Assembly (NCBI RefSeq): GCF_000379025.1
Contig: NZ_KB900623.1
Location: 433,327 to 497,326 of the forward strand
Direction: 5' to 3'
Length of the DNA stretch: 64,000 nucleotides
From: Orenia marismortui DSM 5156
GTDB lineage: Bacteria > Bacillota > Halanaerobiia > Halobacteroidales > Halobacteroidaceae
Position 1 is the first letter of the stretch; every line of letters starts with the position of its first letter. Position numbers and translations under genes: made by a program. This document shows, in pieces, positions 16,078 through 47,876 of the stretch. Below the pieces are notes generated by a model, which saw only the letters and a program-made list of their open reading frames with translations, made no database searches and was not told where the DNA came from.

Positions 16078-17178
16078 ATGAAAAGGTTAAGAAAGAGTTT
16101 ATTTATTCTACCTATACTATGTTTGTTCTTATTATTAATTAATTTTTCTGTATATGCAGTTTCAGACATAGAGAAAGAAATAGCAAAACAGAATGTAGAA
16201 AAATATAAAGAAAAGTTTGGCTTAGCTGAATTAAGCACTAAGGAAGAAAAAAGGATTAATAATATTTTTGATAGATTAACAGTTAAGGCTCACCCTGATG
16301 CTATAGATTTGAACTTTAAATTATATGTCATTGATGCCCCTGTCTTAAATGCTGCCTATATGGGTGATGGGCATATGATGGTATTTAAAGGGTTATTAGA
16401 TCAAGTGGAAAATGATAATCAATTAGCAGCTATTATAGCCCATGAGATTGGGCATGGAGTTAATGATGATATTCAGGATAGTATCAATATTATTCAGGGG
16501 ATTCAGTTAGGTGGAGCATTAGTAGACTTAATAACTAAAGATAGTGAGAATCGAGATAGCAGTAATCTAATTGCTAATATTAGTATGATCTTATTAAAGA
16601 AGGGTTTTGACAGAGGTCAAGAAAAAGAAGCCGATTATTATTCAGTATTCTTAACTAAGAAGGCTGGATATGACCCACATGGTACAATAGGGGTTATGAA
16701 ATTATTGAAAAGAAAATCTGGTGGTAGTAGTGATTCAGAGTTGGCTGAGTTATTTTCTGATCACCCTAATTTAGATAATCGGATTGAGTACTTAACAGCT
16801 TTGGTAACTGAAGTTGAAAATGCTGAAAAACTATACTATTCACCAGTAGCTACTGCTAGTAGGTTAGCCCAAGGAATATTATCATCTAATAATAGTTTGA
16901 TTTATTCTACCTATACAGAGAGTATACAAGAAGCTATTAGTTTAGAAAGATTCAGTACTAATTATCAAATTAATAAAGTAATAGATAAGGTTAAATTATT
17001 AAAAACAGATTCTAACTTAAGCTATGATATGAAGTTAAGAAATCAAGTGGATGGTACTGCTAGAGTTGCGATTAATTATTTAAGTGGTGTTGAAATAATC
17101 TCTTTAGCAATTGATCTAATGAAAACAGAATATGGATGGAGAGTTGTTAGAGAACCGAGGCTTTATGAGAGCAGATAA
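16078..17178 (+). CDS. M48-family zinc metalloprotease, exported
   Basis: 366 residues with an N-terminal signal peptide ending near VYAVS. The zinc motif HEIGH is at residues 122-126 and the third ligand is in EKEADYYSV. This is the M48B/BepA-like arrangement, suited to periplasmic-side or cell-surface quality control. A C-terminal region of about 120 residues lacks a recognised motif. Its stop codon lies inside the first copy of the 77-bp tandem repeat. Confidence 0.86.
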   Translation: MKRLRKSLFILPILCLFLLLINFSVYAVSDIEKEIAKQNVEKYKEKFGLAELSTKEEKRINNIFDRLTVKAHPDAIDLNFKLYVIDAPVLNAAYMGDGHMMVFKGLLDQVENDNQLAAIIAHEIGHGVNDDIQDSINIIQGIQLGGALVDLITKDSENRDSSNLIANISMILLKKGFDRGQEKEADYYSVFLTKKAGYDPHGTIGVMKLLKRKSGGSSDSELAELFSDHPNLDNRIEYLTALVTEVENAEKLYYSPVATASRLAQGILSSNNSLIYSTYTESIQEAISLERFSTNYQINKVIDKVKLLKTDSNLSYDMKLRNQVDGTARVAINYLSGVEIISLAIDLMKTEYGWRVVREPRLYESR

Positions 17179-17465
17179 GTAGCAATGTATTTAAGCTACT
17201 TATCGATCACGAAAAGTCCGAAGGACTTGTAGGGAAGAAATTAAAAGGCAGATAAGTAGCAATGTATTTAAGCTACTTATCGATCACGAAAAGTCCGAAG
17301 GACTTGTAGGGAAGAAATTAAAAGGCAGATAAGTAGCAATGTATTTAAGCTACTTATCGATCACGAAAAGTCCGAAGGACTTGTAGGGAAGAAATTAAAA
17401 AGCAGATAAGTAGCAATGTATTTAAGCTACTTATCGATCACGAAAAGTCCGAAGGACTTGTAGGG
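17171..17465 (+). repeat. Tandem 77-bp repeat, four copies
   Basis: Copies start at 17171, 17248, 17325 and 17402; period exactly 77, nearly identical, the last one 64 bases. Each unit carries two hairpins: GATAAGTAGC with GCTACTTATC (10 bp, 11-base loop), and AAGTCC-GAA-GGACTT. The array begins inside the last codons of the M48 gene and ends 51 bases before the M16 gene. Single diverged copies of the module occur at 21111-21164 and 40061-40118. Confidence 0.95.
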
Positions 17466-17515
17466 TTAGCCCTTAGATAAAAATATATAATTAATTTTAT
17501 AAAGGAAGTGATTTT

Positions 17516-20362: not shown

Positions 20363-20402
20363 ATAAAAATAGGGCTCCTTAAGGAGCCCTATTTTTATTT
20401 AG
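20361..20402. terminator. Bidirectional terminator between M16 and pdxT
   Basis: 40-base perfect palindrome (arms 20361-20380 and 20381-20400) with A-rich and T-rich flanks, serving convergent genes. It includes the last codons of pdxT. Confidence 0.95.
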
Positions 20403-20997
20403 CTGCTTTTAACTTTGAACCTTTAAAAGCTTTAACCTTCTTCACAAAGTATTCGTGTATTTTTAAGTCCTCATCTAATTCTGGATGGAAGGAAGTAGCC
20501 AATAAATTATCTTGTTCTATAGCAACGATTTTATTATCTAATTCAAGTAATACCTCTGCATTGGAAGCAACTTCAGTAGCATAAGGAGCTCGAATAAAGG
20601 TTAAAGGCACTTCAAACTTAGATATTTTAGGAATAATTGCAGTGGTTTTGAAACTATCAAGCTGATTACCATATCCATTTCGTTTAACGTTAATATCCAT
20701 TAGATTGAGATGGCTTTTTTCACCATCAATCTTTTTGGCTAACAATATCATCCCAGCACAGGTTCCCCAAATTGGTACTCCCTTATAAGCTAAATCTATA
20801 ATGCTATCTTTTAAATCAAAAATATCAAGCAATTTCCCAAGAGTAGTACTTTCACCACCAGGTAAAATTAGACCGTCTAAGTCAATAAAATCCTTTTTTT
20901 TCTTAACACTAAAAGGGGAAATATTCTTAATCTTACTTAATAGTTTAAGATGTTCTTCTACTCCTCCTTGCAATGATAAAACACCAATCTTAAGCAT
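20395..20997 (-). CDS. pdxT: Pyridoxal 5'-phosphate synthase glutaminase subunit
   Basis: 200 residues. Hydrolyses glutamine and delivers ammonia to PdxS. Class I glutaminase triad: cysteine in WGTCAGM, histidine and glutamate in SFHPELDED; the GGEST oxyanion loop is present. Transcribed after pdxS, separated by 169 bases that contain a two-hairpin module. Confidence 0.95.
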   Translation of the reverse strand: MLKIGVLSLQGGVEEHLKLLSKIKNISPFSVKKKKDFIDLDGLILPGGESTTLGKLLDIFDLKDSIIDLAYKGVPIWGTCAGMILLAKKIDGEKSHLNLMDINVKRNGYGNQLDSFKTTAIIPKISKFEVPLTFIRAPYATEVASNAEVLLELDNKIVAIEQDNLLATSFHPELDEDLKIHEYFVKKVKAFKGSKLKAAK

Positions 20998-21110
20998 ATT
21001 GATACCACCTTTTTTCTCTAGTGTACGGTTAACAGTTAAAGAATAAATTAAAATATTTTTAAGTTTTTAACTGTAAACTGTACAATAAACTGTACTTTGT
21101 CAACTGCTTT

Positions 21111-21164
21111 CCTCCGAGTCTTTCAGACTTTTCGTGGATTATAAGTGCTAAGGGCACTTATAAT
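21111..21164 (-). repeat. Two-hairpin module, solitary copy between pdxS and pdxT
   Basis: On the minus strand: hairpin ATTATAAGTGC/GCACTTATAAT, then CCACGAAAAGTCT, loop GAA, AGACTCGGAGG. The order and linker match the 77-bp unit at 17171 while stem sequences differ with compensating changes, suggesting conserved structure. As it lies in the pdxS-pdxT transcript it may affect the ratio of the two subunits. Confidence 0.7.
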
Positions 21165-21166
21165 TC

Positions 21167-22045
21167 CTACCATCCTCGATGGGCTAATTTTTCATTATCA
21201 TCTAATGTACTGATATTAATTCCTACCATTGCTTCACCGATATTCTCTGATACTTCAGCAATAATATTAGGGTCATCATAGTGAGCAGTAGCTTTAACAA
21301 TTGCTCTAGCTCTTTTAGCGGGATCTCCTGATTTAAAGATTCCAGATCCTACAAATACTCCATCACACCCAAGTTGCATCATTAATGCGGCATCAGCAGG
21401 AGTAGCAACACCACCAGCAGCAAAGTTAACTACAGGTAATTTTCCATTTTCAGCTACATATTTAACTAAATCAAAAGGAGCTCTTAGTTCTTTAGCAGCA
21501 GCCATCAGCTCATGACTATCCATAGTAGTTAATCGTCTAATTTGAGAGTTTAAAGTTCTCATATGTCTAACAGCCTCTACAACATTTCCTGTTCCAGCCT
21601 CACCTTTAGTTCTAATCATACTAGCTCCTTCACCAATACGACGTAATGCCTCACCTAAGTTAGTAGCCCCACAGACAAAAGGAACACTAAATAATGTCTT
21701 ATCTATATGATTATCTTCATCAGCAGGTGTTAATACTTCGCTTTCATCTATGTAGTCTACACCTAAAGCTTCTAAAACTTGTGCTTCTACAAAATGGCCA
21801 ATTCTTGCCTTAGCCATTACTGGAATAGATACAGCTTCGATAATCTCTTTAATCATTGCTGGATCAGATGCTCTAGCAACTCCACCTTCCTTACGAATAT
21901 CAGCAGGAACTCTTTCTAAAGCCATAACAGCAACTGCCCCAGCTTCCTCAGCAATTTTTGCTTCTTCTGGAGTGGTTACATCCATAATTACTCCACCTTT
22001 TAACATCTGTGCTAGGTTCTTGTTTAACTCATATCTTTCTGTCAT
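21167..22045 (-). CDS. pdxS: Pyridoxal 5'-phosphate synthase lyase subunit
   Basis: 292 residues, (beta/alpha)8 barrel that builds PLP from ribose 5-phosphate, glyceraldehyde 3-phosphate and ammonia from PdxT. Catalytic lysines are in VMAKARIGH and [12 protein letters not shown]. Strong AAGGAGAGGA ribosome site. Divergent from the pdxR-type gene, whose boxes lie in the shared upstream region. Confidence 0.97.
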
Positions 22046-23933: not shown

Positions 23934-23961
23934 TATTTTCATAAGGTAAAATAAAATATAA

Positions 23962-24070
23962 ATTCTTCGGGGTCAGGTGCAATTCCTAACCGGCGGTAAT
24001 AGCCCGCGAGCGTAAGCAGATCTGGTGAGATTCCAGAGCCGACAGTTAAAGTCTGGATGGAAGAAGAGAT
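23962..24070 (+). promoter_or_regulatory. FMN riboswitch (RFN element)
   Basis: The characteristic segments are present in order: CTTCGGGGTCAGGTGCAATT, CCTAACCGGCGGTAATAGCC, GCCCGCGAGCG, GATCTGGTGAGATTCCAGAGC, CCGACAGTTAAAGTCTGGATG and closing GAAGAAG. It senses FMN to switch off riboflavin synthesis; the following hairpin indicates control by premature termination. Confidence 0.97.
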
Positions 24071-24101
24071 TTTAATACTTATTTATATAACTTTGCTTCT
24101 T

Positions 24102-38901: not shown

Positions 38902-38932
38902 TAAATTGTACAGTATAAAGAAGGTGAACATA

Positions 38933-40054
38933 ATGATTAAGAAATTCAAACCAATCAATAAAGCATATAAGTTTAGAATTTATCCTAATCAAGAACAACA
39001 AGAGTTAATTGATAAAACAATAGGTTGTAGTCGATTCATCTATAATGAATTTCTGGCAAAGTCTAAAGATAATCAATATAAATCTTATTCTAAAAACTCT
39101 AAAGAGTTAACTCAACTAAAGAAAGAATATACTTGGCTTAAAGAAGTAGATAGCATAGCTTTACAACAAAGCCTTAAAGACCTAGATAAAGCATTTAAAA
39201 ACTTCTTTAGTGGTAAATATAAATTTCCTAAGTTTAAGTCTAAAAGAAAAACTAGATTATCTTATAGAACACAAAAATTCATTAGACCTAGTGGCTCAAC
39301 TAATATCGAGATAGAAGAAAATAAAATCAAATTGCCTAAACTATCTTGGGTTAGGTTTGCTAAATCTAAAGAGGTTACAGGTAAAATCAATAATGTTACA
39401 GTTTCCAAGTCTAGGGCAGGTAAATACTATATGTCAGTTAATGTTAGTCAAGTTTTAGAAACTACTATTAAAAACAATCAAGGTGAGTTAGGTTTAGATT
39501 TAGGTATTAAAGATTTTTTAACAACTTCTGATGGTGAACATATATCTAACCCTAGACACCTATCGAAATATCAAGATAAATTAGCTAAACTTCAACGTAA
39601 GTTGGCTAAAAAGAAGAAATTTAGCAACAATTGGTATAAACTCAAACAAAAAATTGCTAAGGTACATTCTAAAATCAAGAATGTTCGCAAAGACTTTTTG
39701 CATAAGTTGTCCACTAGACTAACAAAGGAGAAGCAACTTTTAGTCATAGAGGACTTAAATATAAAAGGGATGTTGAAAAACTCTAAATTAGCAAAACATA
39801 TCTCTGACTGCTCGTGGAATAAGTTTACTACTATGCTTGAATATAAGAGCAAATGGTATGACTGTATTGTGCATAAAGTGAACCGATTTTTTGCTAGTAG
39901 TCAAACTTGTAATATATGTGGAATTAAAAATCCAAAAGTCAAAGACTTGTCTGTCAGAGAATGGACTTGTGAGTGTGGTACAACTCATAATAGAGATACA
40001 AATGCTAGTCTAAACCTCTTAAAACAAGGTAAATTAGACTTAGGACTTAGATAG
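38933..40054 (+). CDS. tnpB: TnpB RNA-guided nuclease (IS605/IS1341 family OrfB)
   Basis: 373 residues, apparently intact. N-terminal helical/WED-like part (AYKFRIYPNQEQQELIDKTI, the standard TnpB opening), then the RuvC-like nuclease with acidic residues in LGLDLGIKDF, VIEDLNIKGM and HNRDTNAS, and a zinc finger CNICGIKNP...CECG. TnpB proteins are ancestors of Cas12 and cut DNA guided by an omega-RNA from the element's 3' end. The start at 38933 follows AAGGTGA; a TTG at 38906 overlaps the promoter region and is rejected. Confidence 0.93.
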   Translation: MIKKFKPINKAYKFRIYPNQEQQELIDKTIGCSRFIYNEFLAKSKDNQYKSYSKNSKELTQLKKEYTWLKEVDSIALQQSLKDLDKAFKNFFSGKYKFPKFKSKRKTRLSYRTQKFIRPSGSTNIEIEENKIKLPKLSWVRFAKSKEVTGKINNVTVSKSRAGKYYMSVNVSQVLETTIKNNQGELGLDLGIKDFLTTSDGEHISNPRHLSKYQDKLAKLQRKLAKKKKFSNNWYKLKQKIAKVHSKIKNVRKDFLHKLSTRLTKEKQLLVIEDLNIKGMLKNSKLAKHISDCSWNKFTTMLEYKSKWYDCIVHKVNRFFASSQTCNICGIKNPKVKDLSVREWTCECGTTHNRDTNASLNLLKQGKLDLGLR

Positions 40055-40228
40055 ACTATACCTACAAGTCCTAATGGACTTTTCGTGGTAAACCTACTGT
40101 CGGACTGACAGGAATTTACGCTTTTGGAGAGAGTACAAGACCAACTTAATCTAATTGGATAATTAGCTTTAAGTAGGCAATTCTCGTTGAAAAAAGAATC
40201 CCCGCAGGCTTGCCTCGGGGTAGGTCAA
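40055..40228 (+). ncRNA. Probable omega-RNA region and right end of the TnpB unit
   Basis: Directly downstream of tnpB. Two hairpins come first: CAAGTCC/GGACTT at 40064-40081 followed by TTCGTGG, then GTAAA.../...TTTAC enclosing CTGTC/GACAG (40087-40118). Then a linker and the terminal hairpin 40200-40220. By analogy with characterised TnpB systems the guide would be the roughly 16 bases after the right end (around 40229-40244), here the pyrR promoter region. Analogy only; boundaries not proven. Confidence 0.45.
40061..40118 (-). repeat. Two-hairpin module, copy downstream of tnpB
   Basis: On the minus strand it reads hairpin, CCACGAAAAGTCC, loop, GGACTTGTAGG, the same order as in the 77-bp units at 17171-17465 (CACGAAAAGTCC-GAA-GGACTTGTAGG) and the pdx copy at 21111-21164. 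Confidence 0.7.
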
Positions 40229-40267: not shown

Positions 40268-40298
40268 TTTAGAGAAAAGAAAGTATAATACCTTTTTT

Positions 40299-41016
<718 letters not shown>

Positions 41017-41030
41017 AAGTTATTCCTTTT

Positions 41031-41129
41031 AAACTAGTCCAGTGAGGCTATAAGGGGATTTGGGTAAATAATCATGCATAATAATACCTAAAAACTCCTT
41101 AGTCTTATTGGCTAAGGAGTTTTTTAGGT
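41031..41129 (+). promoter_or_regulatory. PyrR attenuator upstream of uraA
   Basis: AGTCCAGTGAGGCT at 41036-41049, then a terminator with stem ACTCCTTAG/CTAAGGAGT (about 41086-41129) and TTTTTT. Located between pyrR and the uracil permease gene, as in Bacillus. Confidence 0.92.
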
Positions 41130-47704: not shown

Positions 47705-47752
47705 TTATTAATAAAGAATTAAATAACTCTTAAAAATTAAATAAAGACCTTT

Positions 47753-47876
47753 AAGTTAATCCAGAGAGATTAACAAGGATCGTTGATTATAATAGAAGAG
47801 GGTATAACTATACCTTCATATTATAATGAATTTACAAAATTTCCTTGTCGGTTTTTCTGGCAAGGAAATTTTTTAT
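47753..47876 (+). promoter_or_regulatory. Second tandem PyrR attenuator before pyrB
   Basis: PyrR hairpin AATCCAGAGAGATT at 47758-47771. Terminator AATTTCCTTG (47838-47847) with CAAGGAAATT (47861-47870) and TTTTTT. AACAAGGA near 47773 can pair with TCCTTG as antiterminator. Confidence 0.9.

Follow-up and report, generated by a model that had tools for sequence, protein, structure and literature searches.

Introduction

Short palindromic repeats are usually regarded as passive sequences or as substrates of RAYT transposases. IS608 and ISDra2, both of the IS200/IS605 type, have a hairpin end followed by the cut site and insert beside a fixed tetranucleotide, and in the tandem arrays of integron cassettes a hairpin site (attC) closes every variable body. 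Homology-facilitated illegitimate recombination is also a described process. At the right end of IS200/IS605 elements, the site is chosen by a guide that lies 5' of the hairpin (PMC8266576). In fungal mitochondria, mobile ORFs bring a foreign C-terminus into a gene and push the native one aside, with cases in Glomus atp6, atp9, cox2 and nad3 and a first case in Allomyces atp6 (PMC3630166).

The window analysed here, a 64-kb stretch of DNA from Orenia marismortui DSM 5156, holds six copies of a hairpin module at three loci. Four make up a tandem array with a 77-bp unit, one follows pdxS and one follows tnpB (Table 1). We put a probability of roughly 55% on the reading that this module is a mobile element of the Halobacteroidaceae, small and non-coding, that moves gene 3' ends between orthologues. 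A wider form of the same reading, to which we give somewhat under even odds, is that a hairpin-closed, coding-free cassette system in bacterial chromosomes shifts the 3' ends of housekeeping as well as tRNA genes across the orthologues of different species and leaves a tandem record of successive ends.

On the features tested, the module is partly REP-like and partly like the fungal mobile ORFs, and it is a member of neither group. It shares with REPs and REPtrons (PMC3733652, PMC2817692, PMC8266576) a stem-loop of 20-40 bp, tens to more than 100 mostly extragenic copies, GTAG at one end, and clusters that include flanking DNA. However, GTAG lies 5' of the REP palindrome and 3' of the module hairpin, most module carriers lack a RAYT, and the module carries gene ends with constrained codons. 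By word search, the text of a REP survey names no Halanaerobiales (PMC3733652). The likeness to mobile ORFs lies in layout and codon pattern: an end that is foreign, from a putative donor, would complete the resident gene, the displaced native end stays behind downstream, and the protein is kept while the nucleotides differ. The fungal unit, in contrast, usually encodes an endonuclease, whereas module units are about 70-125 bp long without an ORF, end in a fixed hairpin, form tandem arrays and lie on a bacterial chromosome.

As in IS200/IS605 elements, the module hairpin would be followed by a cut site, and insertion occurs 3' of a fixed tetranucleotide, GTAG, which was degenerate in 7 of 13 events. 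Unlike these elements, the module has no constant left-end hairpin and no internal transposase, and the same GTAG stands at both junctions; some copies lie inside IS605-type elements as passengers. Variable bodies in tandem, each closed by a hairpin, recall integron cassettes, but the module is flanked by CACGAA and GTAG instead of attC core motifs (none by inspection of the consensus), its bodies are gene ends rather than whole genes, and no integrase is known to be linked to it. The inverted repeats fixed at both ends and the fixed-length target duplication of MITEs were not found; the left end of the module is variable and its flanking repeats differ in length.

Structure of the module

The first-pass annotation had reported the same order of hairpins at three places, and this order is present, on the + strand at 17171-17465 and on the - strand at 21108-21164 and 40058-40118. 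Its six units are six copies at only three independent loci, because 17171-17465 consists of four almost identical repeats of one 77-bp unit. Each 77-bp unit holds the module together with a copy of the gene end (GCAGATAA, TAA being the stop) and a GATAAGTAGC..GCTACTTATC palindrome; the first module copy sits 26-29 nt past the stop of the gene at 16078-17178. The GTAGGGTTAGCCCTTAGATAA that follows the fourth copy is possibly a decayed further copy of the gene end. Compensating changes had been proposed for the stems in general; within the window, such a change was found only in the 6-bp stem of the second hairpin, and the first hairpins are unlike things. The second hairpin alone was modelled, because the first varies among loci and at tnpB is the element's own, and the two-hairpin unit was rejected as one whole on the same grounds. 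Some copies (pdxS, glmS, window array) have a palindrome ahead of the module, but most do not. The AGG tail noted earlier is real and is part of a longer GTAGG or CGGAGG.

Table 1. Features of the window that bear on the module.
Feature	Coordinates	Strand	Remarks
Module consensus			Order 5' to 3': variable body, CACGAA, covarying stem-loop, GTAG
M48 peptidase gene, 3' end repeated in array	16078..17178	+	
77-bp tandem array	17171..17465	+	Direct repeat z=14.7
Module copy 1 of array	17205..17236	+	R1; CACGAAAAGTCC GAA GGACTTGTAGGG in sense of upstream M48 peptidase gene
Module copy 2 of array	17282..17313	+	R1
Module copy 3 of array	17359..17390	+	R1
Module copy 4 of array	17436..17467	+	R1; then GTAGGGTTAGCCCTTAGATAA
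pdxT (SNO)	20395..20997	-	
Solo module shortly past pdxS stop codon	21108..21139	-	R1
Palindrome ATTATAAGTGC..GCACTTATAAT between pdxS stop and module	21140..21164	.	Part of inserted segment
pdxS (SOR/SNZ)	21167..22045	-	
tnpB (OrfB_IS605, Cas12f1-like TNB)	38906..40054	+	
Module immediately after tnpB stop, antisense to tnpB	40058..40090	-	R1; CCTACAAGTCCTAATGGACTTTTCGTGGTA on +; absent from tnpB relatives
tnpB element's own downstream hairpin, CTGTCGGACTGACAG plus flanks	40091..40118	+	In module-free tnpB relatives; outside module

A covariance model (R1) was built from 15 distinct aligned copies. The six-pair stem was formed in 90 of 90 cells of this alignment, and two-sided changes occurred in four of the six pairs, a count never matched by any shuffle. 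In a larger alignment of 96 distinct copies, which was fitted to R1 and is hence biased towards it, 99.7% of 575 cells were paired, and two-sided changes numbered 127, compared with 40 in shuffles. Across the family, the stem has 5-9 bp and a variable loop, and the CACGAA and GTAG flanks are kept while the stem sequence changes; one unit (L048) has a wholly different yet perfect stem. The exact pattern CACGAAAAGTC, gap, GACT occurred nine times in the 3.46-Mb genome to which the window belongs and zero times for the reversed control. These alignments and counts showed that the module is multicopy and structurally constrained. Covariation of this kind could suit either a DNA or an RNA hairpin.

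Distribution and copy number

With R1, 150 candidates per genome were scored, so the copy numbers given here are lower bounds. At E<=1, the eight genomes of the salt-loving Halobacteroidaceae held at least 51, 61, 81, 49, 68, 2, 48 and 113 copies, that is, from at least 48 to at least 113 in seven of them and at least 2 in the eighth. Among the other seven genomes scored at this threshold, two of the neighbouring family had at least 4 and at least 1 copies, and five had none. At E<=1e-4, two of five genomes of the neighbouring family matched, with one and two copies, and no match was found in 46 genomes of the class outside the order. An exact-pattern scan of a public genome collection returned two matches, in Halanaerobacter jeridensis and Orenia metallireducens of the same bacterial family; since the stem varies, exact patterns recover few copies and a covariance model was needed. 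The many further matches, with covariation, place the likeness of the three loci beyond coincidence, and a mobile hairpin family, as first suggested, fits the REP-like size and copy number and the real covariation.

No description of this repeat family was found in the literature searched, coverage of which was mostly outside subscription journals. A scan of the window for RNA families at gathering scores gave FMN, tRNA and PyrR only. The module had no Rfam match, and lax scans of L001-L003 and the tnpB end returned only miRNA and snoRNA matches at chance level; with no real match at either setting, a known RNA family was rejected as its identity. The ordinary leaders of the window comprise three of the PyrR type and one FMN riboswitch (40289-40424, 41021-41128, 47744-47876, 23959-24072).

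Size, copy number and the GTAG tag would also be expected of a REP/RAYT-type system, in which a REP-associated Y1 transposase acts on the hairpin and the arrays are tandemly reiterated repeats with flanking DNA. Tandem REP clusters reiterated with flanking DNA have been described (PMC3733652), and the window's own genome (G000) encodes a RAYT-like protein, P0002. We consider this explanation improbable: in the RAYT-linked REPs tabulated in PMC2817692, GTAG is 5' of the hairpin and not 3' as here, the RAYT locus itself (L014) carries no module, and tandem reiteration does not predict the synonymous divergence described below. RAYT was present at E<=1e-4 in G000, G006 and G007, with a fragment in G002; it was not found in G001, G003 and G004 despite their copy numbers of at least 49-68. 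As a mobiliser RAYT was therefore rejected, since its presence does not track copy number. Matches to PF01797 (Y1) in G001 and G002, which hold at least 49-81 copies, were only broken ones. Among the candidates compared, RAYT and Y1, no transposase correlated with copy number. Within its coding sequence, the RAYT-like gene of the own genome (L014:1450-1956, - strand) carries an in-frame palindrome, GTAGGGAATGGTCGCGACCATTCCCTAC.

Insertion into pre-existing loci

The site at the 3' end of pdxS is empty in G001, where GGATGGTAG is joined to AGCTCAG, and filled in G000 and G002; the filled site starts after GTAG and terminates in a GTAG-like tetranucleotide. In 13 readable events, the tetranucleotide of the left junction was exactly GTAG in 6 and matched at three or more positions in 10; it was off by one position in 4 and by two in 3 (TTGG at tRNA-Glu twice, CGAG in the window). 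The corresponding p values, about 1e-12 to 5e-7 according to the alignment freedom charged, are only indicative, because the events were chosen as readable and aligned by eye.

Derivation of the module from the end of the tnpB element, which had been proposed at first, was ruled out by empty relatives. The tnpB relatives that are 82-86% identical to the window protein have their own downstream stem and no module, and the regions downstream of tnpB in relatives are mostly free of it. L033 and L040 are near-identical, and they read GACTATA-TACTGTCGGGCGGACAG without and with, respectively, a 52-bp module-bearing insert that separates the tnpB stop from the downstream core hairpin. The existence of near-identical elements without the module thus indicates that it was inserted downstream of tnpB, a region that we take to be the TnpB guide-RNA scaffold. 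The inserts resemble solo copies of their respective genomes: TTCGTGGTAAA is common to the window copy and L001, and TTCGTGAAAACCATAAAAACCATATCT is common to L040 and L019 of G006. This resemblance points to separate insertions.

The module also lies inside tnpA in L013, where it breaks the reading frame, in frame within tnpB at L085 (own genome, C4:22172), where it encodes TTKSSYRTRRD, and at the tnpA-tnpB junction in L102; the IS605 element of L085 holds further copies. Whether copies cluster near tnpB ends or in 3' UTRs had been raised as a question. Many matches do lie in 3' UTRs; tnpB/IS605-type sequences account for about 9 of the 51 own-genome matches, and the rest lie elsewhere. Comparison of filled and empty sites demonstrated that the module inserts into pre-existing loci (after pdxS, downstream of tnpB, inside tnpA) and that the inserted segments lie between two GTAG-like tetranucleotides.

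Downstream RNA regions of the tnpB type (ACCGTAGGGCGTACGGGATT..GCCTCTGGAG) also occur without an adjacent tnpB ORF (L084, L088, L092, L093, L094, L018, L022), and several of them bear an oppositely oriented module. They are possible guide-RNA-only mini-elements.

Among the 30 copies near a gene end, 20 follow that end on the same strand only, and 8 are antisense to the sole nearby gene end. The former, together with the stem covariation, would suit a functional 3'-UTR RNA element (for processing, stability or termination) that owes its spread to ordinary recombination and its retention to selection. The antisense copies and those within tnpA and tnpB coding sequence speak against such a role, as does the failure to match Rfam. 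The T-run of an intrinsic terminator was absent after the stem-loop in the consensus and in the copies, where GTAGGG stands instead. We therefore regard a 3'-UTR RNA element as very improbable.

Duplicated gene ends in tandem arrays

Of 72 copies, about 13 to 20 have, directly past GTAGG, a repeat of what lies upstream of the hairpin, as a rule the end of the gene on that side, and these direct repeats mostly start 0-4 nt after GTAGG; about three quarters of the copies have no detectable flanking repeat. These gene-end duplications had been missed by the first-pass annotation. At uvrB of the own genome, three hairpins lie between four copies of the last uvrB codons, stop codons included, and a terminator-like repeat follows the last gene-end copy. 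Clear arrays have n hairpins with n+1 gene ends, the last element being a gene end and not a hairpin. This layout was found at uvrB (G000, G002, G006), trpB (G000, G003), pgk (G000, G004), a leuA/cimA-like gene, a CBS-domain gene and tRNA-Glu (G001, G002, G012), where names other than M48 peptidase, pdxS, pdxT, tnpB and RAYT were read from protein sequences, and pgk by sequence. Identical genes and sites (uvrB, trpB, pgk, tRNA-Glu) are used across different genera or families. The 3' end of tRNA-Glu(TTC) carries the module in Orenia and also in G012, which belongs to another family (L057, L066, L114, L123), and the few copies of G012 include those at tRNA-Glu(TTC). The left part of array units consists of the last 8-70 nt of the gene with its 3' UTR, and that of solo copies of a short palindromic or T-rich body.

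Comparison of the arrays showed that the first gene-end copy completes the gene and that later copies are leftover. In local duplicates, leftover copies would be free to drift. Leftover copies, counted as one pair per array, differed at 32 synonymous versus 11 nonsynonymous positions, where 22.5% synonymous is expected under neutrality (p=7e-13); the gene-end stretches are short (7-19 codons) and give few pairs per array. The uvrB leftover pairs alone had synonymous to nonsynonymous ratios of 15:4, 10:3 and 15:3. Since the leftover copies differ mostly synonymously, they diverged while functional. The gene ends would most simply have diverged in use in other lineages and then been joined; units that alternate between functional and leftover positions within one lineage are a less simple alternative. 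Genes thus seem to have gained end pieces of related lineages, carried along with the hairpin. Unit r1 of the G000 uvrB array is 78% identical to a G002 unit and 64-67% to its own array neighbours. The horizontal origin of the gene ends is thus read from codon patterns and one best-match comparison, and no donor lineages of these ends were found.

The units in the window array 17171-17465, L089, L185, L186 and L187 are near-identical, and in the window array, L089 and L187 they have the appearance of simple tandem amplification in place. Such units would be the product of replication slippage at the hairpin, with gene-end copies as by-products of local tandem duplication. As a general account, slippage is the least probable of the explanations weighed here: leftover copies differ chiefly at synonymous sites, and clear arrays close with a gene-end copy instead of a hairpin.

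Units u1 and r2 of the G000 uvrB array share an identical 47-nt UTR plus hairpin and have five synonymous differences upstream, and are thus mosaic. This pattern is compatible with enzyme-free, hairpin-stimulated illegitimate recombination, in which incoming or sister DNA would begin to recombine by homology within the gene, end or stall at the hairpin and be joined in the resident gene end at a GTAG microhomology. GTAG at both junctions is also expected from microhomology-driven joining, and the varying repeat lengths and the lack of any transposase that correlates with copy number fit as well. Applying homology-facilitated illegitimate recombination to the module arrays would, however, leave unexplained the 50-110 dispersed copies, the ectopic insertions of a minimal hairpin (window tnpB, pdxS, tnpA), the CACGAA and GTAG flanks kept beside a changing stem, and the near-restriction to one bacterial family. 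We judge this explanation unlikely, though one to be taken seriously.

Proposed mechanism

In the mobile-element reading that we favour, the fixed part would be a single right-hand end made of CACGAA, the covarying stem and GTAG, and the left side could be any DNA between a GTAG-like site and the hairpin. By analogy with the layout of the IS200/IS605 right end, CACGAA would be the guide. A recombinase or nuclease would act on the single-stranded hairpin and cut after its GTAG, and the freed end would be joined after a GTAG-like site. A mobilised segment with the end of an orthologous gene may originate in another strain or species, be brought in by DNA uptake or a comparable route, and enter the same site of the resident orthologue. 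It would bring a new end with its stop codon and push the resident end downstream, and repeated rounds of such replacement would build the arrays. On the left side, homologous recombination within the gene may help, as the mosaic units suggest.

If this reading is right, a repeat of about 30 bp can install foreign gene ends at a fixed site and restore the stop codon or the tRNA tail on every occasion, and tiny repeats would thereby have a new means of carrying gene fragments. It would also offer a testable hairpin-plus-GTAG reaction and a fossil record of earlier gene ends, and would call for caution in phylogenies and annotation near gene 3' ends in the Halobacteroidaceae.

Other repeats around the modules

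Arrays built from GTTGACAGTTTACAGTTGATAG-type 7-bp units flank many modules (21025-21100 in the window; L016, L019, L020, L023, L064). Palindromes of the type GATAAGTGC..GCACTTATC start at the stop codon, or no more than a few bases from it, in several unrelated genes, including the M48 peptidase gene, pdxS and glmS; they were seen at 17171-17465 and 21140-21164 in the window and in L080, L097 and L159.
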